NCBI RefSeq assembly: GCF_001302565.1
Contig: NZ_CP012750.1
Coordinates: 2,480,001-2,544,000, forward strand
DNA length: 64,000 nt
Source of the DNA: Glutamicibacter halophytocola
GTDB taxonomy: Bacteria > Actinomycetota > Actinomycetes > Actinomycetales > Micrococcaceae
Direction: 5' to 3'
In this document: positions 10,744 to 31,577 of the stretch, piece by piece
How positions within the stretch are numbered: the first letter of the stretch is position 1
Layout: the number at the start of each line of letters is the position of its first letter
Program-made: the position numbers and the translations under genes
Notes under the pieces: generated by a model
Told to the model about the DNA's origin: nothing
The model's input: only the letters and a program-made list of their open reading frames with translations
The model's database searches: none

Positions 10744-11013
10744 ATGACGGAACTGGCCAGCGCCGGCCTGTACGAGTGGCTCAAGAACCGCGACCCGCAA
10801 CTGCTGGTCGCGTTCCACGAGGAGGCCATCGAGCAGCACCGCAACGGTCTTGATGCCGCGCTCGTGGCCTGGGACGAGCACTTCGAGCCGGCCGAGCCCA
10901 GCGACTCGTCCGCTCCCGCTCCCGAGTCCGCCGGCCCATCTTCCGCTCCCGCTCCAGATGGCACCGGCAAGTCCTCCCCCGACGCTCCCGCTCTGGGCGA
11001 GAACGAACTGTAG
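10744..11013 (+). CDS. Small acidic hypothetical protein with Pro/Ala/Ser-rich tail
   Basis: 89 residues. The first 55 are helical (LYEWLKNRDPQLLVAFHEEAIEQHRNGLDAALVAWDEHF); the rest is a low-complexity tail of Ser, Ala and Pro. It starts two bases after the previous stop with GGGAGCG just upstream, so it is translationally coupled. No function is recognised. Confidence 0.5.
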   Translation: MTELASAGLYEWLKNRDPQLLVAFHEEAIEQHRNGLDAALVAWDEHFEPAEPSDSSAPAPESAGPSSAPAPDGTGKSSPDAPALGENEL

Positions 11014-11061
11014 CTCCACACCGCATCAACCAGATAAATCACTATGGAGAGGATGGTCACC

Positions 11062-11358
11062 ATGACCAAGCTCAGCATCGAAGAAGAGATGAAGCTGGCC
11101 AAGAAGGCCCACAACGAGAAGATGGCGAAGCTCAAGCGCAAGCAGGCCGCCGAGGAGAAGCGCATCACCGATCGCGTCCTGGAACTGCTCAAGGGCGACG
11201 AGCATGCCGAGCTGTTCGGGCAGCTGTACCAGCAGGCGTTCCAGGAGCTGCTGGCCGAGCGCGAGGAGCGCAGCCGCAAGGCGAAGGAGGCCCGCGAGAT
11301 GGCACCTGTCGGAGCTGACAACGAGGCGGGAGCCACCTCGCTGACCTCGGGCTACTGA
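11062..11358 (+). CDS. Small charged coiled-coil protein
   Basis: 98 residues from the ATG at 11062, chosen because GGAGAGGA lies upstream; the ATG at 11044 has no such site. The composition is almost wholly helical and charged (EEEMKLAKKAHNEKMAKLKRKQAAEEKRITDRVLELLKG). This is the last gene of the rep-associated run before a strong terminator. It could be an accessory DNA-binding or relaxosome protein, but that is only a positional guess. Confidence 0.5.
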   Translation: MTKLSIEEEMKLAKKAHNEKMAKLKRKQAAEEKRITDRVLELLKGDEHAELFGQLYQQAFQELLAEREERSRKAKEAREMAPVGADNEAGATSLTSGY

Positions 11359-11383
11359 CGCGAAGGCGTCGCCCCGAAAGACC

Positions 11384-11413
11384 GAGCCCCGGTTGCTGTT
11401 GCAGCCGGGGCTC
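11384..11413 (+). terminator. Terminator of the rep-associated operon
   Basis: A perfect 9-bp stem (GAGCCCCGG / CCGGGGCTC), with the loop partly closed by GC pairs, followed by TTTG, 26 bp after the last stop codon. Confidence 0.75.
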
Positions 11414-11439
11414 TTTGCTGCCCAGAACCGGTCTCTAAG

Positions 11440-11968
11440 TGGCCAGATCCCGGCCAGGCCCAGACTGGTAGAAGCCCAGCAATGGGCCAGCGGTGACCAG
11501 GTGGGACCTGAGTGGAAAGACCATGGCCTTTCTGTGGCCATTAGGCACCCATCCGAGGTCTTGCTCGGGCCAAATCTTGGCCATCCTCGACCAGAGCGAA
11601 TAGTGCTGGCCATTTCAGGACCACTGAAGGGCTCTCTGCGGTCAGCATTTGGCCACTTTCAGCCCGCCATGAGCCCTCAAATGACCGGGCGATGCCTGAT
11701 GCCGAGTCCGGGTGCATTCATGGCCTCCTTCTGGCCAATTTGAGCCCATTGATGGTCTCCCGCTGACCACGTAGAGACCTCGTTTGGCCAGTCCACATTC
11801 CGTTGGCCATTGCTGGCCTGTTTCCGGCCAGCTGGGTGCCAAGATGAGCCCGGACGCAGTCCTTGAATGGGCCAGCAATTGAGCGCTGGTCACGAATAGG
11901 CCAAATGAAGCCCGCAAGCGGGAGCAGAATGGCCAGACTCGGACCGGCAGAAGCCCACCAATGGGCCA
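11440..11968. repeat. GGCC(A)-rich degenerate repeat array in non-coding DNA
   Basis: About 20 GGCC sites, most as TGGCCA, TGGCCAG or GGGCCAG, occur in roughly 530 bp, several times more than base composition would give. Two longer related units share GAAGCCCA-CAATGGGCCAG (11471-11490 and 11949-11968, one mismatch). The stretch carries no convincing gene on either strand. It lies between the rep operon terminator and the candidate oriT, where a partition site, protein-loading array or secondary origin could sit. None of these is shown. Confidence 0.6.
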
Positions 11969-12145
11969 GGCAGAGACATCCGCCCGGGGATGCGGCCGAC
12001 TTGATGCGGTGCATAGCAGGCTTGCCCGCTCGCATTGCAGCATCGATGCCGCAGAGATACGCCAGCGCGTTCATGCCCGAGTGACAGGTGCAGCGCGGGC
12101 TATCCCGTGCCCTTTGCCTGGCACCAGCGTTGGGTACGACGTGGT

Positions 12146-12998: not shown

Positions 12999-15326
12999 GT
13001 GTACACAGGAATCCAGAGCACAGAAGTCGCCGACCGCATCGCCGACTACGTCCAGAACCCGAAAGGCGACGACAGCATCGGCCGCTGCCTCTACGCCTCG
13101 GGCATCGGCTGCTCCGCAGCGACTGTCAAGGCCGACTTTGCAGATACGCGGTCGCGATATGACCCGAACTCCAAACTGAAGATCGAAGCCTTTGCACTCG
13201 TTCTGAGCGCCTCGCGCGAGGAATTTGATCCCGAGGACCCGGAGCAGGTGCACCAGCTGCACCAGGTTTCGCTGGAGGTCTACCGCCGCGCGTTCCCTGG
13301 CCGGCAGCTGATGGCTGGCACGCAGATCGATGGCCAGTCCGGACTGGCGCATACCCACGGCATCGTCTCCAACATCGCCCACGAAGACGCCGAGATGACC
13401 CACACGGTCAAGGGCCGGAAGGTCACCGAGCAGGTGGTGGCGGGCAAGCCGTTCAGCTCACGAATGTCGAACGTCTTCCGAATCCGGTCAGTCACCAACA
13501 AGGTGCTGGCGGACGAGGAGTTCATGGCCTCCATCGGCTACGACAACAGCCGGCTGGGCGAGCTGATGAAGGGCCGCGCCGGCCTGGATGGCACGAAGTT
13601 CAACGGCTTGATCGGCAAACATGCCTACGACAACCGGGAACTGGTGCGCGTCACCCGGGGCACCAATGCCTGGCTACAGGCACTCAAGGACCGTATCAAG
13701 GACGCGGCATCCAGGAGCACCGACGAGGCGTCGTTCCGGCAGGAGCTGTCGCAGGACGGAGCTGTGGAGCTCGTCGAACGCGGCAATAAGAAGGTCTGGT
13801 CGTACAAGTACACCGACGAGAACGGAAAGAGCCGTACCGTGCGCTCCGGCTCCAAGCGGCTGCATCTGGACGAAGGCGGCCGAGAGGCGATCCTGCAGAC
13901 CCTTGACACCAACGGCATCGACGCCGCTGCCCAGAAGAAGTCGGCTGCCGCCCTGGCCTTCGAAAGGCACGAGGCCGAGCGTGTTGCCCGCTGGAGGAAG
14001 CGGGCTGCCGAGCGCGACGCGGCGATCCGCGCCATGCACGAAGCGCAGTCGGCACTCATCGCTCAGGAGGCCGCACTCCATGCCGCGCAGCAGGCAAATC
14101 GCGATGCCCAGCGGGCCGAAGCGACTTCACGGCAGCAAACGGCACGACGCGCGGTCCTCGACAACCCTCCGGCGCGCTTCCAGCAACTGCCGGAACCTGA
14201 GCTCTCGCAGCAGGTTGAAGAGCTGGTCGTCGTGAAGAACGAGCGCCTGGTGGGCTTGTGGTCAATTACCCGAATTGCTGATCGCGACGCAATGCGCAAG
14301 CGCCATGGCCTAACATTCGAGGAGTCCAAGTACCTTGATGTGCTGTGGGAGGACCTGGGGCGGCCTGAGACCTCTTCAGAACGGCCAGAAGAGCTGGCGG
14401 CGACCGTGCATGCCCCTGAGCCGTCCGAGGCGACTGTCAAGCCGGGACCAAGCGCGGTTCCTGCGCAGGCGGATGCCAGCTCTCGCGACTTCGAAGAAGT
14501 GCTGGCCGAGGTGAAGGCTGCTGAAGTCGAGACCGACCTGTCATGGCTTGACCGGCTGCATCCGAAGCGGAAGCGCCCAACTCCTGCGGCGAAGCCCGCG
14601 GAGCCCGAGGATCGCGAGGAAGCTGAAGCTGTCGTGCTGCCAACTGATGAGCCGTCACAGGATGTCGTGGATCTGCACGAGGTCGAGGTGGATGCACAGC
14701 TTGCCGACGAGGGGCCGCAGGCACCTGAGGTCGAGGCCGCGCCAATTGCCGAGCCGATCGCCGCGGAGCCCGTGGCCCCAACACCGGCAGACGAGCCGGC
14801 AACACCCTTGCGGGAGTCCAACCTGCGGTTGATCAAGCGCACCAACGAGCGCAAGCAGCGCACGCTGGATGCCATGGCCGACTTCGAGGAACAGCACGCC
14901 TGGACTGCCCTGGCCTGCGGGGAGCATCTCGACGAGGCGCTGGTGCCCAGTGGCGTGGGCAGGGCATGGATGACCGAGTTCGGCGAGTACCTGGACCCGG
15001 CCGTCAGCGAGCAGTTGTGGCTGCGCGTGGCGCTGATCGAGGAGCACGACGCCGAGTTCAGGGCAGGCCACGAAGCGCTATCGCAGCGCAACGAGTTGCG
15101 GGCCGCGCTGGGCTCTCGTAGTGAGTCTTCGAAAAAATTCTTGAGGCTTGATACCTCGGTGCGTCGTTCAAACTTGCGACGCCAGTGGCTGAAGTCGAAG
15201 CGGGCAGCAGGCGACTACGACCTGGGTGACGAGGACCGCAGTGCGTACACCAAGGTCGTCATCGCCGAACGCGCGGCACAGAACGATCAGGCTGCCACAT
15301 CGGAGCTGCAGCAGCCTTCGATGTAG
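12999..15326 (+). CDS. mobA: MobA/VirD2-type relaxase
   Basis: 775 residues from a GTG at 12999. The N-terminal 250 residues form the relaxase domain: a Tyr in the opening MYTGIQSTEVADRIADYV, then EEFDPEDPEQVHQLHQVSLEVYRRAFPGRQ, and the HxH metal motif in GLAHTHGIVSNI. This fits MOB_P-type relaxases, which cut one oriT strand and pilot it to the recipient. The C-terminal 500 residues are Ala/Glu-rich, coiled-coil and low-complexity with no recognised primase or helicase. No coupling protein or type IV secretion genes are seen, so the element is probably mobilizable rather than self-transmissible. A strong terminator follows. Confidence 0.8.
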   Translation: MYTGIQSTEVADRIADYVQNPKGDDSIGRCLYASGIGCSAATVKADFADTRSRYDPNSKLKIEAFALVLSASREEFDPEDPEQVHQLHQVSLEVYRRAFPGRQLMAGTQIDGQSGLAHTHGIVSNIAHEDAEMTHTVKGRKVTEQVVAGKPFSSRMSNVFRIRSVTNKVLADEEFMASIGYDNSRLGELMKGRAGLDGTKFNGLIGKHAYDNRELVRVTRGTNAWLQALKDRIKDAASRSTDEASFRQELSQDGAVELVERGNKKVWSYKYTDENGKSRTVRSGSKRLHLDEGGREAILQTLDTNGIDAAAQKKSAAALAFERHEAERVARWRKRAAERDAAIRAMHEAQSALIAQEAALHAAQQANRDAQRAEATSRQQTARRAVLDNPPARFQQLPEPELSQQVEELVVVKNERLVGLWSITRIADRDAMRKRHGLTFEESKYLDVLWEDLGRPETSSERPEELAATVHAPEPSEATVKPGPSAVPAQADASSRDFEEVLAEVKAAEVETDLSWLDRLHPKRKRPTPAAKPAEPEDREEAEAVVLPTDEPSQDVVDLHEVEVDAQLADEGPQAPEVEAAPIAEPIAAEPVAPTPADEPATPLRESNLRLIKRTNERKQRTLDAMADFEEQHAWTALACGEHLDEALVPSGVGRAWMTEFGEYLDPAVSEQLWLRVALIEEHDAEFRAGHEALSQRNELRAALGSRSESSKKFLRLDTSVRRSNLRRQWLKSKRAAGDYDLGDEDRSAYTKVVIAERAAQNDQAATSELQQPSM

Positions 15327-15392: not shown

Positions 15393-16271
15393 CTGTGGGC
15401 CTGACAATTTCCTATGCCCGGCACAACTGTCGCCACCCCGGCACCAAACAAGTGGCCACATTAATGAATTACTGATTCATACCTGCATCGGCAAAGCCTG
15501 CAGTAAGGAGTTCACAGACCGACCCTTCCATAAGCGCGTAACCGGGGTTTCGCATTGCCGACTTGAGTAACGAAATATCGAAAACACTTCTGGTCCCGTG
15601 GCTCGGGTGGAGTTCAAGGCAATTCAACCTTCCAGCGGCTACCTCACGCAGTGCGGGGCCAGGTTCAATAAGCCGAGCAGGAAATTACGTTGTTGCTAGA
15701 AGGCTGTAATCGATAGAGTCCAATGTTGACTGCCGGGAATTACGAAATCACTACTCAGAAATACAGCGCGTACCTGAAGGTCGCTATCTGTGAGAACGCG
15801 AGACAGCTCGTTATCCAAAACTACATAGCCGTCCAGTATCAATCGGATCAGTCGGCGCAGGGGGGAAGAGCTGGCTTCATGGGGTCGGAGTATTTCACTG
15901 CCTAATGCTGCGGCGGCGTGGCACCAGCCGGTTACGCTGAGGATACTCCTGGAACTCGAGAAATCCGCATCCTAACGGCTTAGACCGATGTGGCTTCAAC
16001 TCCAGTCATTGAGAGGCATTTGAGTTACTTGAAGGTGACGAGAACAGGGCTGCACTTTACCGGTTAGAAAGCCTTAGAAGTCAAGTTCACCAAGATGTGC
16101 GGTAAATTCGGAGACTCAATGCTGACCACCCTTCCGCGGGGAATAACGGCCTGTTGGTACGCAGAAAGCGAGACGCCTCCCGCCGTCTTGCTTCGCGTTG
16201 AGTAGCCTAAATGTCGCTCGTCCATGGAAGACTTGCCAACGAATCAGGAAAATAGACCAAGGGCGGTAACT
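15393..16271. other. Non-coding A+T-richer stretch before the OLD nuclease gene
   Basis: About 880 bp in which base composition shifts from the GC-rich mob genes to the A+T-richer cargo. Only short open frames occur (for example 15723-15905), with no ribosome-binding site or recognisable protein. I take it as decayed DNA or a long regulatory leader and see no RNA gene. Confidence 0.35.
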
Positions 16272-18197
16272 ATGCGTATTAAGTCAGTCGGTATCGAGAA
16301 TTTTCGATGCCTAAATAAAGCGGATATCGATTTTAGCCAGATTACGACATTCATCGGCCCCAATGGGGCCGGAAAAAGCTCAGTTCTTCGTGCATTGGAC
16401 TGGTTTTTCAACGGTGGCGTCATCGACGAGAAGGATGTATGGTCGGGAAGCAACCAACAGCGAGTACGAGTGCGCGTAACTTTTGACACATTGACGGGCA
16501 CGGACCGTGTGGCCCTGGGTGACAAGTACGCTCCAGCAGGCGCAGATACATTCACTGCTTGGCGCACTTGGTCGAACGGCCAGGACAAGATGACAGGCAA
16601 TGCTTTATCCTTCCCGCCATTCGAAGATGTCCGAAATGCCGTTGGAGCTGGCCCCAAGAAAGAAGCCTGGTTAAAGGTTCTCGAAGCTCATCCGGATCAA
16701 GATCTGCCTAAATGGTCGTCTGCCGCCAAAATCGAGTCCTCTATGGATGACTGGGAACGCGCTCATCCTGAGCACCTTGCGGAGTCTGAATCAGGTGGAA
16801 ATCACCTATTTGGATTCAACGGACAAAACGTTCTGTCTGGAATTTTCGATTTCGTTTTAGTAACAGCAGATCTTCGAGCGAACGAAGAAAGTCAAGACGC
16901 CAGAGGCACGATTATCAGTCGCATTCTGGAAAAAACGGTTGACCGGGCAGCTGCCGACGAGGCGTATGCCCAGCTCGCCGAAGAAGTAGCAACTCGTCGC
17001 GAAGCCATCTCAAAAGCGCATCTCACGGCACAGCTTGAAAAGCTCGGCGCTGACCTAAGCAGTGAAATTGAAGCATTCACCTCCGGTCGCAAGATCCAAC
17101 TAGCGGCAGAAGAGCCCGAGTTGAAACCTCAAATGTCGAAAATCCGAGTCACCGTCAGGGATCAACTGACTCAAACGGATGTCGACCGCCAAGGGCATGG
17201 CTTCCAACGCGCCCTATTGATCTCCAGTCTAAAAATGCTTGCCAGCAAAAGCGCTAGCCAAGATTCTGAGAGTGTCATTTGCTTAGCCATCGAAGAGCCC
17301 GAGCTCTTCCAGCATCCCACCCAGGCTCGTGCGTTCTCCAGCGTCCTACGAACACTCGCGAGTGACCTCGCCAACGGTTTGCAAATTACCTATGCAACAC
17401 ACTCACCCTATTTTGTAGACGCGCGATATTTCGATGAGATTCGGCGAGTTCGGAGAAGCACGGCTGCCTCAGATCAGCACGCTGAAGTCACAATCTCGCA
17501 TGCGAAGCTGGATGCAGTTGCATCCAGATTGACTGGTTACGTCGACCCGAAGGTTGTAACCGCGCGGTGGGACATGGTTTGCAATCAACACCTATCCGAA
17601 GCGCTCTTTGCCGATGCCGTGATGCTGGTAGAAGGCGATGACGATAAGGCCGTATTCGAGGGCATTGCTGCGCGGTCCAAGCACCTTTCCGCGGACGGCA
17701 TTGCTGTCGCCGCTGCACAAGGCAAAGGACATCTGTACATCCCCCATGCAATCCTGAGTGAATTAAAAATTCCCACGATGGTCGTCTTCGACAATGACTC
17801 GGGCTGCGAAGCAAGGATGACCGAGAAGAAAAAGCATGAGAAGAATCCTGAAAAGATCAGAGAGAACGAGAAGACTATAAAGCACACCGTCCGCAACCAT
17901 GTCAAAGATAACCGTGCTCTCCAACGCTACTTCAACCTTGACGAGCTCGATTACCCCACTGGATTACTGTCGCCTGAGCTACACGCCATTGACGACACAC
18001 TTGAGACAGTCATCAACAATGATTGGCCGAGCTGGCACGACACCCTACAGACATTAGTTGACAGCGGTCAGGGTGTAGGCAACAAGAATGCAGCGACATA
18101 CGCCCTTGCCTCAACGAAATGCGAAGAGGAACCGAGCGGGCAAATCGCATTGCCAGTCGAGAGCATCAGAACCTTGGTTCGAGCAGTCAACGGGTAG
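16272..18197 (+). CDS. OLD-family ATP-dependent endonuclease (AAA ATPase + TOPRIM)
   Basis: 641 residues from the ATG at 16272 (MRIKSVGIENFRCLNKADI), the usual start of the family; an open frame back to 16224 lacks similarity. The ABC-type ATPase has Walker A GPNGAGKSS (29-37), Walker B around VICLAIEEPELFQHP (about 335) and a TYATHSPYFVD switch segment. The C-terminal TOPRIM nuclease has VMLVEGDDDKAVFEGI (about 450) and VVFDNDSG (about 503). OLD proteins are DNA nucleases, and phage P2 Old excludes phage lambda. No UvrD-like helicase is adjacent, so it is not a Gabija pair and looks like a stand-alone (class 1-like) OLD. It is more A+T-rich than the mob genes and is probably antiphage cargo. 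Confidence 0.85.
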   Translation: MRIKSVGIENFRCLNKADIDFSQITTFIGPNGAGKSSVLRALDWFFNGGVIDEKDVWSGSNQQRVRVRVTFDTLTGTDRVALGDKYAPAGADTFTAWRTWSNGQDKMTGNALSFPPFEDVRNAVGAGPKKEAWLKVLEAHPDQDLPKWSSAAKIESSMDDWERAHPEHLAESESGGNHLFGFNGQNVLSGIFDFVLVTADLRANEESQDARGTIISRILEKTVDRAAADEAYAQLAEEVATRREAISKAHLTAQLEKLGADLSSEIEAFTSGRKIQLAAEEPELKPQMSKIRVTVRDQLTQTDVDRQGHGFQRALLISSLKMLASKSASQDSESVICLAIEEPELFQHPTQARAFSSVLRTLASDLANGLQITYATHSPYFVDARYFDEIRRVRRSTAASDQHAEVTISHAKLDAVASRLTGYVDPKVVTARWDMVCNQHLSEALFADAVMLVEGDDDKAVFEGIAARSKHLSADGIAVAAAQGKGHLYIPHAILSELKIPTMVVFDNDSGCEARMTEKKKHEKNPEKIRENEKTIKHTVRNHVKDNRALQRYFNLDELDYPTGLLSPELHAIDDTLETVINNDWPSWHDTLQTLVDSGQGVGNKNAATYALASTKCEEEPSGQIALPVESIRTLVRAVNG

Positions 18198-18578: not shown

Positions 18579-18607
18579 TTGAACACTTAGCGCTTCTCGC
18601 ATAGTGT
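18579..18607 (+). promoter_or_regulatory. Probable promoter of the RiPP cassette
   Basis: TTGAAC (18579-18584) and TAGTGT (18602-18607) are separated by 17 bp, a plausible vegetative -35/-10 pair. It would start transcription near 18614, about 25 bases before the peptide start. A near-palindrome TGTGTTG-t-CAATCACA (about 18605-18620) overlaps the -10 box and start point and could be an operator. Confidence 0.4.
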
Positions 18608-18638
18608 GTTGTCAATCACACATGAGGGGGTGAATTAA

Positions 18639-18725
18639 GTGCAGATGATTCGTAAAATGAAGGCTCGTCTCCTCGGTGAGGAGCGCATTGTTTGCCTCGC
18701 ATACTCGAAGCAGTACTCGTGGTAG
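18639..18725 (+). CDS. Candidate RiPP precursor peptide, 28 residues, aromatic C-terminal core
   Basis: The frame starts at GTG 18639, with GAGGGGG (18624-18630) eight bases upstream, and stops at TAG 18723-18725. An in-frame ATG at 18645 would give 26 residues but lies too far from this site. The N-terminal part is basic and helical (MQMIRKMKARLLGEER), like a leader. The end is VCLAYSKQYSW, with Tyr22, Tyr26 and Trp28 at the extreme C-terminus and Cys19 before them. P450-modified RiPPs (biarylitides, cittilins, atropopeptides such as tryptorubin) have short precursors whose C-terminal Tyr/Trp/His residues are cross-linked by one P450. A hairpin, a P450 gene and an MFS gene follow on the same strand. 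The gene is below normal annotation length. That it is translated and modified is inference. Confidence 0.7.
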   Translation: MQMIRKMKARLLGEERIVCLAYSKQYSW

Positions 18726-18738
18726 AGAAGACCGGTGA

Positions 18739-18780
18739 GCGGGGAGAGCTCGATGCCTTTTGGCGGGTAGATCTCCCCGC
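18739..18780 (+). terminator. Hairpin between precursor and P450 genes (attenuator-like)
   Basis: A perfect 9-bp GC-rich stem (GCGGGGAGA 18739-18747 / TCTCCCCGC 18772-18780) with a 24-base loop, followed by TTTCCTTT. It begins 14 bp after the peptide stop. Such partial terminators are common between RiPP precursor and enzyme genes, giving more precursor mRNA than enzyme mRNA. Confidence 0.65.
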
Positions 18781-18807
18781 TTTCCTTTAGCGGATCGTGG
18801 TGTCATT

Positions 18808-19941
18808 ATGTCTAGAGAGCGAGCAACTTTCCCTCGGCAATCGCTATGGAAGCACATGGCGGGTTGGGATCAAAAGTACGAGAAGCTGTCATCGCCGATC
18901 AGACTAGATTCCGGAGCAATATTGGTGACTGAATCTGCGTTGATTCGACAAATATTGCACGATCAAGAAAATTATGTCGATGAGTCAGCTTTTCTTCGAA
19001 CTAGGAATTTTTTCCCGCTACCTCATGAGCAGCGCATTAATGTCGTTCGGCAATTCATTCGAATCATGAGTCCTGCTACCGATCTCGTATCTGATTCTCT
19101 TAGTTCGTTCTTTGAAGCAAAAAGAACTTTGAAGATGCAGTCAGACGGTATTTGGATGATGTACGCCCTGTACAAAGACAAGATATGGGACCCTCAACGC
19201 TCTGCTGATTACGGTCAATATATTGAACATTACATAGCGCGCAAGACAATTCACGACGATGTCCAAGGCGGCTTTAGGCGCTTGCAAGGCCTCCAAAGGG
19301 AACAGTTAGATGTGAATTTGGGAAATCTACTGCGCGCAGACAGCTCGGGCCCTCACCACGATCTGGTGTCGGTAGTTAAAAACGTTCAGCTCGATTTGAC
19401 GCCAGTTGAAAGTAGCGAGTTGCTTTTGCGACTGGTTCAGTCCCTGGTTGCGTTTACGGGTGTGGCATTCGAATTCTCCCTCTACTACCTTGCGTTGCAT
19501 CCTCAATGGCTACAGTGGATTGACAGCGAAGAAAGAGCTAAAGCATTCGTTCTGGAGCTGCAACGTCTGTACCCTACAGCGTGGAGGCTGACGCGTACCG
19601 CAAAACAATCACATCATCTGGACGGGATCCAAGTAATTGAAGGAGATGACGTGATTCTGGGGCATAGCGTCGCGCATAAAAATTTTGAAGAATGGGGGCG
19701 CGAGAGCCAAGAGTTCCAGCCTGATCGTTGGATTGATCAGTCCCCCACACGGATTTTAACTTTTGGTAGCGGTCCCGGCGCGTGCCCAGGGAAGAACATC
19801 GCACTAAACATCCTTGCTAGATCGCTCCTTTGGGCGAGTGAGCACTTCGCCGAGCTAGACGTAGTACAGAAATCACGCTCGCCTTATGTACGATCAATTC
19901 TCGCTGCTCCAAGGCTTAGGCTCTCGATCCGCAAGAATTGA
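18808..19941 (+). CDS. Cytochrome P450, candidate RiPP-crosslinking enzyme
   Basis: 377 residues from the ATG at 18808; a TTG at 18760 in the same frame lies inside the hairpin and is less likely. The heme-binding loop is TFGSGPGACPGKN (F319, C326), the K-helix ExxR is E250-LQ-R253, and FQPDRW (303-308) is the meander. The I-helix (about 213-222, LVAFTGVAFE) lacks the usual acid-alcohol pair (Glu/Asp-Thr), which is often altered in P450s doing phenolic coupling rather than hydroxylation. No ferredoxin or reductase gene is adjacent, so host partners must supply electrons. The setting directly after an aromatic-ended peptide gene suggests aryl or indole cross-linking. The gene is A+T-richer than the element backbone. 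Confidence 0.85.
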   Translation: MSRERATFPRQSLWKHMAGWDQKYEKLSSPIRLDSGAILVTESALIRQILHDQENYVDESAFLRTRNFFPLPHEQRINVVRQFIRIMSPATDLVSDSLSSFFEAKRTLKMQSDGIWMMYALYKDKIWDPQRSADYGQYIEHYIARKTIHDDVQGGFRRLQGLQREQLDVNLGNLLRADSSGPHHDLVSVVKNVQLDLTPVESSELLLRLVQSLVAFTGVAFEFSLYYLALHPQWLQWIDSEERAKAFVLELQRLYPTAWRLTRTAKQSHHLDGIQVIEGDDVILGHSVAHKNFEEWGRESQEFQPDRWIDQSPTRILTFGSGPGACPGKNIALNILARSLLWASEHFAELDVVQKSRSPYVRSILAAPRLRLSIRKN

Positions 19942-19947
19942 GTTTTC

Positions 19948-21207
19948 ATGAGCAAGAAGAACAATCGACTAACACTGGCGAAGTTCTCGAACGCCGCCGA
20001 CGCATTTTTCGTCCAATCCTTCGACCCTTGGACTGACATTATTGCCGTCTCAGTACTGGCCGCTAGTGCCTGGCAAATCGGTTTGCTCAATGCGCTGACA
20101 ACGGCCTCATTCATGATTCTAGGTATTCCTATAGGGATCTTCGTAGACCGCTATGACGGCGTCCGCGTTCTCAAAACGGCATTGGTCACTAAGGTTCTAT
20201 TGACGTCTGCTTTATTGCTCATGAGCGTTAGTGGATACCTGTCAATCTCACTATTGCTCGTTTTTGCAACGCTTATGGGAATCGCCACCGTTGCTACTGA
20301 AACGGCACAGGTGTCGACAGTTCCGTCGCTGTCTCAGAATGACAGCCAAATTGGTCGAGCAATCGCAACTATCGCAACTTGGGATCGGGTCGCCACACTT
20401 GCCGGGCCCGTGGCGGTCGCATTCGGCATAGTTTCCATCGGAGCAAATAAAGTACTGCTTGCCGTCATTGGGTTCTCAATCGTTGCAATGATCGGAGCGA
20501 TGTTCATCAGGAAACCGCATCGAGTGCATCGCTCAGCTGAACCTGATTCACTGAAAAATGCGGAGTTACCTGCCAAGCAGTCGTTTTGGACTCAAGCCAA
20601 AGATGGTTGGACGGTTTTAGTGAACGATCGTCAGCTTGCGGGGATGACGTGGCTGTCTTGTTTTAGCAACGCAGGGTTGGCCCTCGGGGGTGCGGTTGAA
20701 GCCATACTCGTTATTCAGGTTCTTGACTTAGGAATCGGTTTCTTTGGAATATTAGGATCCATCGGGGCGCTATCGGGAATCGCAGCAGCATTCCTTGCTG
20801 ACCAAATATCTAAGAGTGTTTCCGTCAGAAAGCTCTACCTCTGGGGAGGCTTGGGACAGGTTGTCTCGGCTGCAATGCCCCTTATTGCCTTTTGGGTGCC
20901 TTCCGCTGCAGTTGGACTGCTGATCGTCCACACCGCAGTTTGGGGCGTAATTCTTACAGTGACAAATGTTTCTGCAAGTATCTACGCAGCCGTTACAGTC
21001 GACCAATCATTGCTTGGTCGAATAGCTGCTCTTCGTCGATCACTAACAATGGCACTAGTCCCGATCGGCAGCATAGTTGGAGGTGTCTTGGGTAGTTCTT
21101 TTGGCATATGGCTCCCCTTGTTACTCTGGCCGATCTTCGTGCTTTTTGGCGTTCTATTGTACTCGTCGTTGGACCGTAGCGTCATCAAAGTCAATACCGA
21201 ACAGTAG
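19948..21207 (+). CDS. MFS transporter, probable exporter of the peptide product
   Basis: 419 residues starting six bases after the P450 stop, so co-transcribed. About 12 hydrophobic helices are visible, with the MFS loop 2-3 motif as GIFVDRYDGVRVLK (about 65-80). The sequence is of the MFS_3/enterobactin exporter (EntS-like) class, which exports siderophores and small peptides or drugs. In this cassette it most likely exports the mature peptide and gives self-protection; no peptidase gene is present. The A+T-rich composition matches the P450 gene, so the two probably moved together. Confidence 0.85.
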   Translation: MSKKNNRLTLAKFSNAADAFFVQSFDPWTDIIAVSVLAASAWQIGLLNALTTASFMILGIPIGIFVDRYDGVRVLKTALVTKVLLTSALLLMSVSGYLSISLLLVFATLMGIATVATETAQVSTVPSLSQNDSQIGRAIATIATWDRVATLAGPVAVAFGIVSIGANKVLLAVIGFSIVAMIGAMFIRKPHRVHRSAEPDSLKNAELPAKQSFWTQAKDGWTVLVNDRQLAGMTWLSCFSNAGLALGGAVEAILVIQVLDLGIGFFGILGSIGALSGIAAAFLADQISKSVSVRKLYLWGGLGQVVSAAMPLIAFWVPSAAVGLLIVHTAVWGVILTVTNVSASIYAAVTVDQSLLGRIAALRRSLTMALVPIGSIVGGVLGSSFGIWLPLLLWPIFVLFGVLLYSSLDRSVIKVNTEQ

Positions 21208-21525: not shown

Positions 21526-22095
21526 ATGGCACTGGTGGGATTGGTGCGAGTCAGCACGAAGGGTCAGGACACCGCGCGGCAACATGACGCACTGGACCCG
21601 ATCTGCGTTAAGGTCTTCGAGGAAAAAGTAAGCGGTAGCTTGAAGGTCGAGAACCGGCCAGGCTTGTGCGCCACGATCGACTACATGCGCGAGGGCGACA
21701 TGCTCGCCGTCCAGGAAGTTGATCGCCTCGGCCGAAACCTGATCGAGGGGCTGGTCGTGCTCACGGACTTGTTCGAACGCGGAATCGCAGTCAAGGTCAT
21801 CGAGGGCATCGCCAAGGGCGAGCACACCGAGCGGAGCTTCGTCCTGGATATGGCCATGGCCCTCGCCGAGGACCGTCGCCGCGACATCGTGCGCAAGACC
21901 AAGAACGGGCTCGAAGCAGCGCGCAAGCGCGGCAGGGTCGGCGGCCGCCCGCGGGTGATCGACGACGACAAGCGCGCGGTCATCATCTCCCGGCGCGAGA
22001 GGGGCGAGTCGATTAGGGAGATCGCTTCGGCTGTCGGAATCTCAATCGGGACAGTGCATTCTGCTCTGGCCGTGGATGAGCAGGAAGCCAGCTGA
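21526..22095 (+). CDS. Resolvase/invertase-type small serine recombinase
   Basis: 189 residues. The catalytic domain has VGLVRVSTKGQD (nucleophile Ser10) and the DRLGRNLIEGL motif, then a long E-helix (RSFVLDMAMALAEDRRRDIVRKTKNGLEAARKRG). It ends in a helix-turn-helix (GESIREIASAVGISIGTVHSAL). The length and layout match Tn3-type resolvases and Hin/Gin invertases. It could resolve multimers of the excised element or be left from a transposon that brought in the RiPP cassette. Its TGA overlaps the ATG of the next gene (TGATG), so the two are translationally coupled. Confidence 0.85.
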   Translation: MALVGLVRVSTKGQDTARQHDALDPICVKVFEEKVSGSLKVENRPGLCATIDYMREGDMLAVQEVDRLGRNLIEGLVVLTDLFERGIAVKVIEGIAKGEHTERSFVLDMAMALAEDRRRDIVRKTKNGLEAARKRGRVGGRPRVIDDDKRAVIISRRERGESIREIASAVGISIGTVHSALAVDEQEAS

Positions 22096-24882: not shown

Positions 24883-25410
24883 TCACACCGATCTGAAGAC
24901 GAACACCCCGCCGCCTGGCGCACTGGCCGTCGAGTGCTCTTGCTCAAGGTCGCGGGCCCAGGCCTGCCAGTTGAAGTACCGGCGTACTTCTTCGTTCACT
25001 CCATCAAGCAAGGCGATGCCATCAACCAGCTCCCTGGCGTAGTCGTCGAACGAGTCCCAGCGCCCCGCGTACTGGTCTTGGAATGCTTCGAGACCTCCGT
25101 CCTCGGAACTGTTCTCGCCGGAGTGCTCCCAAGCGCAGAACGCAGACCAGAGATCGTTGCCCAGGCGCTCGTACGCCTCGGCCCACGGAACCACATCAAG
25201 GGGCGAGCACTCGCCTTCGATGGGCAGGTTCTCTTGGTCAAAGACCCATAGTTCCTCGTGGTCGCCTACGGGGCGGCGCACTGCGTCATGCAGGCCCTGA
25301 ATCGTAACTGCCGTTGCCTCGTCCAAGTCGTACCACTCGCCTATTAGGCGACCCTCGTTGTAGCAAGCCAGGCAGCCGATCCAGACGCTGGGCTTGTTCT
25401 CTTCAGGCAT
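24883..25410 (-). CDS. ardA: ArdA-type antirestriction protein
   Basis: 175 residues with GGAGAGGA upstream. It opens with SVWIGCLACYNEGRLIGEWYDLDEATAV, the ArdA signature, continues with the acidic PLDVVPWAEAYERL and ends in an EEVRRYFNWQAWARDLE segment. ArdA proteins are acidic mimics of B-form DNA that block type I restriction enzymes when a mobile element enters a new host. This supports the region being a transferable element. It is notable that a restriction-modification module lies 6 kb away in the same island. Confidence 0.88.
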   Translation of the reverse strand: MPEENKPSVWIGCLACYNEGRLIGEWYDLDEATAVTIQGLHDAVRRPVGDHEELWVFDQENLPIEGECSPLDVVPWAEAYERLGNDLWSAFCAWEHSGENSSEDGGLEAFQDQYAGRWDSFDDYARELVDGIALLDGVNEEVRRYFNWQAWARDLEQEHSTASAPGGGVFVFRSV

Positions 25411-29538: not shown

Positions 29539-31074
29539 TCAGCGATCCGCAGCAGTGCCCGGCACTGCTCTGGGAGTGATCTCCACCGTTGTGGGATCGA
29601 AGGTCTTCTTGCCCCGCGGATGCGGATGCAGCTTCACCGTCATGAAGAAGTCGATGACCCGGCGCTTGATCATCAGATCGGCATCGTCGAACGCCTTCAC
29701 TGGGCTCTTGGCATCCAGTACTCCCCCGAGATCCGTGGTGATCGTCAAGTTGCGGCGCTCCTTCTCCAGCGCAGCGATCTTGGTGAGCTCTCTGTCCCTG
29801 GTGCGCTTGAGATCGTGGCCCTCGATCAGCTCGTTGTCGTAGTCATTCTGGGCACGCTTGATTCTACCCTCATGGATGCCGATTTCAGCCCTGATCGCCT
29901 GGAGCCGAGGTTCATCAAGGCTCGGGATCGTGTCGACCAGGTCAGGACGACCCAGTCGCTCGCGGACGACAGCCAAAACGAACTGGTCGATCTGCTCCCT
30001 TGAACGCATGATGTGGCCCTCGCAGCGGTAGCGCTGGCTGTGGGCCTTGACCGGCTTCTCGCAGATGCCGCAGAGGAAGAGACCCGAGCCGATGTGCTTG
30101 CGAGCAGTCGAGCCGGTTCGGTTGGTGACCCTCTCGGGCGCATTCAGGCGCTCTTGGACCGTCCACCACACATCGGGCTCAACGATGGGGGTCCACTGCC
30201 CTGCAATGGGATCCCCGTCCTCGTCGCGCACGATCTGGGCGTACCAGGTCCTGCGCTTGTTCTCGGCGCGAGCATTGCGATCGGTGTATACCGAGTAGCC
30301 GGCGTAGCGGGGATTGCGCAGGATGCCGAGCACCGTCGAAGAGTCCCATGGGCCATCGGATGGCACGGGTGCCGGATCCTCGCCGTTAGCTGTCCTGCGC
30401 ACGTTGCGCTCGATCGCCAGCGTCCTGTTGCGCTTGGGCAGGTGCGGCAGCGAGGCCGGGATGTAGTCGGCTTCGAGGCCGGACAGCCCCTTGGCGATCG
30501 ACGCGATAGAAGGCCCATCACTGATGGCGAACAGGCGGAAGATCTCATGGACCGCTGCTGCCTCGTCCTCGATCAGATCGCCGTTGGTGGCATACCCCAG
30601 TGGGCGCACGCCCTTGGGAGCACGGCCCTGCATGGCCCGCTGCAGCTGCGCCCGCGACTGGCGCTCGGCCTTGCGCCGCACTTCGAAGCGGGCAATGGCA
30701 GCCAGCATCGTCGCGCGGAACTCTCCATCGGCGGTCGACAGGTCGATGTCGCCACTGACCGTCACCGCCATGAGGTTGTGCTCAATGAGCACGAGCAAGT
30801 CCTGGAGACTGCGCAGGAGGCGGTCCAAGTCAACACCGATGACGGTGTCGATCTTGCCGGCATCGGCGTCGGCGAGCATCCGCGCCCAGTTCGAGCCCGG
30901 ACCGCGGCTCTTGGATGCGGAGAGGCCATCGTCGACGTACTCGTCCACGATGACCCAGCCACGCTCGTTCGCCAGCTTCCTGATGCGCGGCAGCTGCCGG
31001 TCGATGCCATCAGGGTCGGCTTTGGACTGGCGGGCGTACAGAGCTGCGCGGCGGGGTTCAGAAGTCACGTACAC
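29539..31074 (-). CDS. int: Large serine recombinase (integrase)
   Basis: 511 residues from a GTG at 31074; a GTG at 31068 is an alternative. The frame is open to 31251, but the catalytic fold begins here. The resolvase domain has RAALYARQS, with the Ser as nucleophile, and GVDLDRLLRSLQDL. The recombinase domain follows (PLGYATNGDLIEDEAAAVHEIFRLFA; STVLGILRNPRYAGYSVYTDR). The zinc ribbon is GLFLCGICEKPVKAH...YRCEGH, and a coiled coil (RAEIGIHEGRIKRAQNDYDNELI) completes the typical set. Such enzymes integrate phages and integrative elements unidirectionally and need a separate excision factor. It marks the right end of the mobilizable element; the attachment site is expected beside its start or stop. 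Confidence 0.9.
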   Translation of the reverse strand: MYVTSEPRRAALYARQSKADPDGIDRQLPRIRKLANERGWVIVDEYVDDGLSASKSRGPGSNWARMLADADAGKIDTVIGVDLDRLLRSLQDLLVLIEHNLMAVTVSGDIDLSTADGEFRATMLAAIARFEVRRKAERQSRAQLQRAMQGRAPKGVRPLGYATNGDLIEDEAAAVHEIFRLFAISDGPSIASIAKGLSGLEADYIPASLPHLPKRNRTLAIERNVRRTANGEDPAPVPSDGPWDSSTVLGILRNPRYAGYSVYTDRNARAENKRRTWYAQIVRDEDGDPIAGQWTPIVEPDVWWTVQERLNAPERVTNRTGSTARKHIGSGLFLCGICEKPVKAHSQRYRCEGHIMRSREQIDQFVLAVVRERLGRPDLVDTIPSLDEPRLQAIRAEIGIHEGRIKRAQNDYDNELIEGHDLKRTRDRELTKIAALEKERRNLTITTDLGGVLDAKSPVKAFDDADLMIKRRVIDFFMTVKLHPHPRGKKTFDPTTVEITPRAVPGTAADR

Positions 31075-31144
31075 GAGCTTAACTCGAGATGATTCATATC
31101 GTGGGTATGCCAAGCTGCCAGCTATACCCTGACTAGCGCGTGCG

Positions 31145-31577
31145 TTAGGTTGGAAGATGGAACTGCTTGACGATGGTACTACTGTCGGCGATTTCAACCT
31201 CTGCCACAAACGGGCCGCGGAGACACGGATACGGCATGGTCGCCCCGGCACCCGCCATGACTACCTCTTCAATGACGAACTCGGCGCAGTGGTTCGGTTC
31301 CATGCGGGACGACTTCTTGCCGTCGGTCGTCGTGACAAGAACGCGGAGGCGTTCGTGGTGCTTTCCCCGGTTGGCCAGATGGACTGATTTTGATGGTGAA
31401 CCCCCGGTCCCGACTCTCGACCGCAATGACCAGACGATGTCCGTCAACGACGCGGTGCTCCTCCTGCCGGTATTCCGCCCTCTCGTGCCGCAGCTCGACC
31501 TGCGCGGTAGGGCGCAAGACATTCGCAACCTTCGGTGCCACGTTTATCAACGGCGCGATCAGCGCGATCGGTTCCAC
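31145..31577 (-). pseudogene. Frameshifted hypothetical gene
   Basis: Two overlapping minus-strand frames read as one protein with a one-base offset. The first, from ATG 31577, begins MEPIALIAPLINVAPKVANV and reads sensibly to VIAVESRDRGFTIK. The second then continues SVHLANRGKHHERLRVLVTT...VIEEVVMAG...FVAEVEIADSS to a stop at 31145. The switch lies at an A4 run (31393-31396 on the plus strand as TTTT). The joined product would be about 144 residues with a beta-rich C-terminus. It may be a real loss-of-function change or a sequencing error in the homopolymer. It sits just upstream of the integrase start, beside the expected element end. Confidence 0.45.

Follow-up and report, generated by a model that had tools for sequence, protein, structure and literature searches.

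In a stretch of 64,000 nucleotides from Glutamicibacter halophytocola (contig NZ_CP012750.1, positions 2,480,001 to 2,544,000 of the forward strand; hereafter called the window) we analyzed a cassette of three genes of low GC content. Read directly from the DNA, a short precursor peptide gene is followed on the same strand by an RNA hairpin, a cytochrome P450 gene and a gene for a protein of the major facilitator superfamily (MFS). Sequence comparison indicates that this is a real and conserved cassette for a ribosomally synthesized and post-translationally modified peptide (RiPP), whose P450 probably joins Tyr22 to Tyr26 of the precursor, i.e. two tyrosines in i,i+4 spacing. An initial annotation of the window had proposed a P450-modified RiPP in which Tyr22, Tyr26 and Trp28 are cross-linked; by our analysis the proposed three-residue cross-link is reduced to the tyrosine pair.

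We searched for small open reading frames (ORFs) next to the P450 genes of the family described below. A small ORF on the same strand upstream of the P450 gene with a Y-x3-Y motif within its last 22 residues was found at 18 of 18 family loci, window included (152 small ORFs scanned), as compared to none of 62 control P450 loci (360 small ORFs). The upstream stretch was anchored on the heme cysteine in both groups, and five of 67 control loci were dropped due to the lack of a usable ORF or flank. An earlier scan with unequal anchors, using the start of the match for the family and the start of the longest ORF for the controls (seven of 67 control loci dropped), resulted in 18 of 18 family loci versus 0 of 60 controls. 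At the family loci no Y-x3-Y small ORF was detected on the opposite strand (0 of 18 loci, 116 ORFs) or downstream (0 of 18, 75 ORFs). One additional family locus, L023 in genome G648, carries the precursor MKLLKSQVARAFAAAAYKNQYGGPQ. Relatives of the P450 are thus not devoid of a small upstream ORF, and the small ORF is conserved together with its P450 more than expected by chance.

We also assessed the conservation of the precursor gene at the codon level. Searching 58 genomes with the window P450 gave matches (E 0.001 or better) in 19 of them, but besides the window's own the sole close P450 was that of G028 (57% identical), a genome of a different genus of the same family as the host; across 17 other genomes of the host's own genus the best match reached only E 3.4e-5. 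Just upstream of the G028 P450 lies a 28-codon ORF (L004:1327-1413, peptide MKTLRKVKARLRGQGRIVCLAYSKQYTW), and an MFS gene is located downstream. Over 29 codons, counting start and stop, 29 base differences separate the two precursor genes: 19 fall on third, 7 on first and 3 on second codon positions. The stretch RIVCLAYSKQY is unchanged despite six synonymous codon differences. The third-position bias together with this unchanged stretch suggests selection on the peptide, and the codon-level conservation between relatives whose absence would have spoken against a peptide is present. Conservation of a ribosomal precursor gene along with the enzyme that modifies it, as is asked of a RiPP, was therefore found both in the comparison with control loci (18/18 versus 0/62) and at the codon level, and the annotation of a P450-modified RiPP is strongly supported by the same two results.

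From 19 loci we collected 28 peptides with the Y-x3-Y pattern, and tyrosines at positions 0 and +4 are accordingly present in 28/28. The family precursors are 25–30 amino acids long, with the pair located 2–4 residues from the peptide end. Nine loci encode two tandem precursors with conserved leaders ahead of one P450, with cores of the YFVGY and YGDRY types, and the pair is found in both. What appears informative from these sequences is the contrast with the controls, the constant place of the pair and the fact that both tandem precursors keep it. The residues enclosed by the pair vary (SKQ, RNQ, KNQ, SSN, FVG, GDR). Trp three residues ahead of the pair occurs in 9/28 peptides, Cys at the position of C19 in 2/28 and Trp at the position of W28 likewise in 2/28. 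Since W28 is found in just two peptides, the Y-x3-Y-x-W core was dropped: of the unit formed by Tyr22, Tyr26 and Trp28 the tyrosine pair stands, in peptides picked by this very pattern, and Trp28 does not.

The window P450 is a true but divergent member of its superfamily, scoring 59.4 bits against the Pfam p450 cut-off of 22.8 and matching only over the C-terminal part. E250xxR253 and the heme cysteine Cys326, both noted in the initial annotation, do not vary among 18 aligned sequences, that of the window among them. The acid-alcohol pair that is usual in the I-helix of P450s is not present in the corresponding segment VAFTGVAFE. We calculated a tree of 57 rows comprising 18 family members, 6 tryptorubin-type P450s, 32 controls and PDB 9ulw; 31 of 63 control P450s were left out. 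The family was recovered as a single clade (support 98/90); separate clades likewise hold the tryptorubin-type P450s (100/100) and the controls (100/99). The tryptorubin-type P450s were taken from beside precursors ending in AWYxWY; 17 such loci were found, and 6 of the 10 fetched gave a P450 under the rule used. The fork joining the family and the tryptorubin-type P450s as sisters (90/83) gives only a hint of such a relationship. Several branches are long, within the family above all that of L018, and an unusual letter make-up was flagged for the window and G028. L035 was excluded from the tree and from one alignment because its P450, from Streptomyces altiplanensis HST21, lies in two reading frames (L035:3989-5136), which may reflect a broken gene or a sequencing error.

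An AlphaFold2 model of the window P450 built from 13 sequences showed a P450 fold with a predicted local distance difference test (pLDDT) score of 73.8 and a predicted template modeling (pTM) score of 0.78. The structural matches listed are P450s of other known kinds, the first being CYP109B4 at a template modeling score of 0.70. The modeled fold thus points to a P450 and says nothing on the substrate. The best sequence match in the PDB is 9ulw chain A ('Cytochrome P450', 376 aa; E 8.8e-40 to the family profile), the sole near-full-length match to the profile among the matches listed. In the tree it is placed apart from the Y-x3-Y clade, at the end of a long branch whose position is unsure. 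Another P450 match is found elsewhere in the host genome (G000:C1:833680-833940).

We determined how widely the P450 family is distributed within the family, order and class of the host, counting its own genome. Members were found in 2 of 395 genomes at E 1e-20 and in 3 of 396 at E 1e-14; profile searches at 1e-25 gave at least 2 of 394 and, with a larger profile, at least 3 of 295 genomes, lower bounds since at most four and six first-look candidates per genome were scored. The plasmid collection held one record with a relative, Streptomyces sp. KN37, and no near match to the window DNA, and no relative of the window P450 was found among viral contigs and phages. Plain homology with the window P450 as query detected no relative in the genome contigs, the query being too narrow, whereas a profile scan of these contigs yielded at least 591 pattern matches, 488 of them encoding relatives. 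The best 80 of the 488 were kept: 13 with near-full-length matches (L025-L037) were assigned to the family, and the remaining 67, whose matches lay mostly in the C-terminal part, were taken as ordinary P450s and used as controls.

From these observations a biosynthetic route can be proposed. The 28-residue precursor would be made with a basic, probably helical N-terminal two thirds serving as leader for the adjacent P450; the leader would extend over about residues 1–20, with the core around Y22SKQY26SW. Guided by the leader the P450 would bind the precursor, and its heme, supplied with electrons from host redox partners, would oxidize one of the two tyrosines. Radical coupling to the second tyrosine would then link Tyr22 and Tyr26 through an aryl bond of the C-C or C-O type, with loss of two hydrogens. 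A host protease would cut off the leader and the MFS protein would export the product, while the hairpin after the precursor gene may keep transcripts of P450 and MFS below precursor levels. We infer the cross-link and its type, the border between leader and core, the cleavage, the redox partners, the export and the attenuation.

The P450 might act on the peptide by another reaction or linkage, e.g. Tyr26-Trp28 (i,i+2), a multicyclic product of Tyr22, Tyr26 and Trp28, a bond to Cys19 or a hydroxylation. W28 and C19 occur in both of the closest cassettes, window and G028, P450-made Tyr-Trp links of i,i+2 spacing are reported (PMC11002830, available in part), and other aromatic residues near the pair are conserved in subsets of the peptides, such as the Trp three residues before it. 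However, the W28 and C19 positions are kept in two of 28 peptides each, versus both tyrosines in all peptides of this pattern-picked set, and a single P450 clade serves all of them; we regard such a reaction as rather unlikely. The location of two Tyr codons just ahead of a hairpin upstream of the P450 gene would also fit a regulatory leader peptide, in which ribosome stalling at these codons controls an attenuator. This explanation seems very improbable: around the Tyr codons the amino acids are kept while the codons change, as in RIVCLAYSKQY with its six synonymous differences, nine loci encode two tandem peptides with conserved leaders, the hairpins are weak in half of the folded loci, and the Tyr codons are neither adjacent nor repeated. 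Since genes for P450s and MFS proteins occur commonly, and since the window P450 reaches no more than 59 bits against Pfam p450 with a match confined to its C-terminal part, one could think of an ordinary small-molecule P450 with an efflux pump next to a chance or unrelated small gene. The co-occurrence at 18/18 versus 0/62 loci and the codon-level selection leave hardly any room for it.

Several points weigh against a Tyr22-Tyr26 link as the product of this cassette. The 28 peptides were picked by the Y-x3-Y pattern, so that the invariance of the pair is built in, the controls address its presence alone and the 28/28 count is not independent evidence. G028 aside, relatives share only about 22–30% P450 identity and could treat the pair otherwise, e.g. 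by hydroxylation. A conserved gene for a protease, a redox partner or another tailoring function was not found within the flanks of 18 loci. The hairpin between precursor and P450 reaches z <= -2.2 in 9 of 18 folded loci, the other nine lying between -1.74 and +0.94. The AlphaFold model is of moderate confidence (pLDDT 62.4 to 42.5 for the other four models) and contains no peptide. Finally, the i+4 spacing lies outside the i+1 to i+3 range stated in the available parts of the literature compared.

This literature, each source available in part, comprised PMC11450843, PMC12352619, PMC13192836, PMC13417212, PMC13383641, PMC12951456, PMC12299652 and PMC11002830. P450s described there form cross-links between the aromatic side chains of short precursors of ribosomal origin, among them Tyr-Tyr links of the C-C or C-O type (PMC13192836, PMC11450843, PMC11002830), and the spacings stated for such cross-links are i+1, i+2 or i+3 (among others PMC11002830). 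In atropopeptides (tryptorubin family) a single small P450 likewise follows immediately on a short precursor with an N-terminal leader and C-terminal aromatics, as in the window cassette (PMC11450843, PMC12352619). As far as described, their leaders carry KSLK, RSLK, ESLK, KSRK, KPLK or PSLK at residues 17–20 (PMC11450843), motifs that are absent from all 28 peptides; all 10 of the atropopeptide precursors read contain KSLK, and KSLR or RSLR occurs in six of the 28 peptides, but at residues 6–9. Atropopeptides have Trp at core position 2, where AYSKQYSW of the window and all 28 peptides have Tyr, and in the sources available a Trp-x2-Trp/Tyr arrangement instead of a tyrosine pair in i,i+4. Their P450s fall into a separate clade, and an MFS gene is found in one branch of the Y-x3-Y family. 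As leader motif, core Trp2 and P450 clade all differ, we rejected membership in the atropopeptides. Precursor ends of the tryptorubin type were observed in 17 of 219 genomes (L108-L119) of the genus of G1008, presumably Streptomyces as judged from the P450 tree.

In biarylitides one P450 likewise cross-links aromatics of a tiny ribosomal peptide (PMC13417212, PMC12951456), but their precursors are described as pentapeptides with aromatics at positions 3 and 5 (PMC13417212), as compared to 28 residues with Tyr at 22 and 26 in the window. The cassette was not assigned to the biarylitides, given these differences in precursor length and aromatic positions. A single strict pattern search for biarylitide P450s matched none of 219 genomes. 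Cittilins have a core of the YxYY type; such a core is found neither in AYSKQYSW nor in the other collected peptides, and the cassette was not placed there either. The term cyptides (roseovertin, rubrin, lapparbin) covers P450-made biaryl RiPPs with varied aromatic patterns (PMC12299652, PMC11002830). The links stated in the available text are Trp-His i,i+3, Trp-Tyr i,i+3 and Tyr-Trp i,i+2 (PMC11002830), as opposed to the i,i+4 pair of the window. The aminopyruvatide P450 ApyO likewise joins two tyrosines of a precursor peptide, but its target is YLY (i,i+2), unlike the core of the window, and its cluster includes an MNIO enzyme, according to the accessible part of PMC13192836. ApyO is the best-scoring NCBIfam model for the window P450, yet reaches 37 bits against a cut-off of 525. 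A YLYD core was not present and MFS was the only conserved neighbor found (the flanks were not scanned with an MNIO model), so the cassette could not be grouped with the aminopyruvatides.

In the parts of the literature available no P450-RiPP family with a Y-x3-Y core or an i,i+4 Tyr link was found, although the Nam/Hu/He 2023 and Liu 2024 surveys may list one. We see about an even chance that the clade of P450s with Y-x3-Y cores represents an undescribed actinobacterial P450-RiPP family with an i,i+4 Tyr-Tyr macrocycle, wider than the stated i+1 to i+3. The same balanced estimate applies to this family jointly with its division into two types, one with a single precursor and an MFS gene (window, G028, G086, G648, Curtobacterium) and one centered on Streptomyces, where a single P450 would act on one or two precursors that differ in their ring residues. 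There is a demand for P450 macrocyclases of short ribosomal peptides as biocatalysts that yield rigid cyclic peptides. If the proposed linkage is true, this clade, with its two fixed tyrosines around varying residues, would offer a natural framework for peptides stapled over one turn, the loop being variable. Annotation easily overlooks the precursor gene because of its small size.

At 5 of 18 loci compared, window included and L024 left out, the precursor-P450 pair has a homologous MFS gene as a neighbor. In the window, G028, G086 and Curtobacterium this gene follows the P450; in G648 (L023) it precedes the precursor. At the other 13 loci no MFS homolog was found within the flanks examined; on the KN37 plasmid an annotated MFS gene is located nearby on the opposite strand, which does not group with the five. 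The MFS gene after the G028 P450 is present as two very similar tandem copies (L021:9336-10634 and 10782-12080). The hairpin of the window (folded stretch 18726-18808) has a minimum free energy of -34.3 kcal/mol with z -2.34, and 4 of 200 shuffled sequences folded as well. The stretch between precursor and P450 also folds into a hairpin in the four other MFS-type loci (z -3.51, -5.91, -4.60 and -9.50). Rfam gave no match at the hairpin and one match elsewhere in the window, far below threshold; sites resembling terminators (3 found, 3.2 expected) or promoters (3 found, 3.3 expected) occur in the region at chance level. The hairpin is presumably an attenuator or a processing element.

The layout described in the initial annotation was recovered as it stood: the 28-codon gene with its ribosome-binding site and AYSKQYSW end, which mechanical ORF finding returned as the same ORF (L003:1332-1418), the hairpin behind it, and the MFS gene on the same strand starting six bases past the P450 stop. 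The cassette is also A+T-richer than its surroundings (GC 0.50 versus 0.606 for the window), and its DNA looks recently acquired.

Table 1. Features of the cassette and its surroundings in the window, and family loci with tandem precursors.
Feature	Position or loci	Strand	Remarks
Ribosome-binding site GAGGGGG	18624..18630	+	8 nt ahead of GTG; direct reading
Precursor peptide gene	18639..18725	+	GTG start, 28 codons, TAG end; peptide MQMIRKMKARLLGEERIVCLAYSKQYSW, ends AYSKQYSW
RNA hairpin	18737..18782	+	11-bp main stem 18737-18747/18772-18782, between precursor and P450
Cytochrome P450	18808..19941	+	377 aa, ATG 18808; PF00067 59.4 bits; proposed Tyr-Tyr macrocyclase
MFS protein	19948..21207	+	419 aa; PF07690 60.2 bits; presumed exporter
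Small serine resolvase	21526-22095
ArdA antirestriction protein	24883-25410
Large serine recombinase	29539-31251
Tandem-precursor loci	L020, L024, L025, L027, L028, L031, L032, L034, L035		seven Streptomyces genomes, one Streptomyces plasmid, G1008

The cassette had further been placed on a mobilizable element. ArdA, the small serine resolvase and the large serine recombinase are present and suggest a mobile element, whereas the putative relaxase (12999..15326) showed no convincing Pfam match. Its upstream neighbor gave a NikA-like match at merely E 0.23, and repeats flanking the cassette are short and chance-like. A mobilizable setting is thus only indirectly supported by the gene content of the region. 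Directly upstream of the cassette an OLD-like AAA ATPase/TOPRIM protein is encoded (16224-18197); OLD-like proteins are often linked to defense. A protein encoded at 28253-29143 matches YaeF/YiiX-type (C92) amidases.

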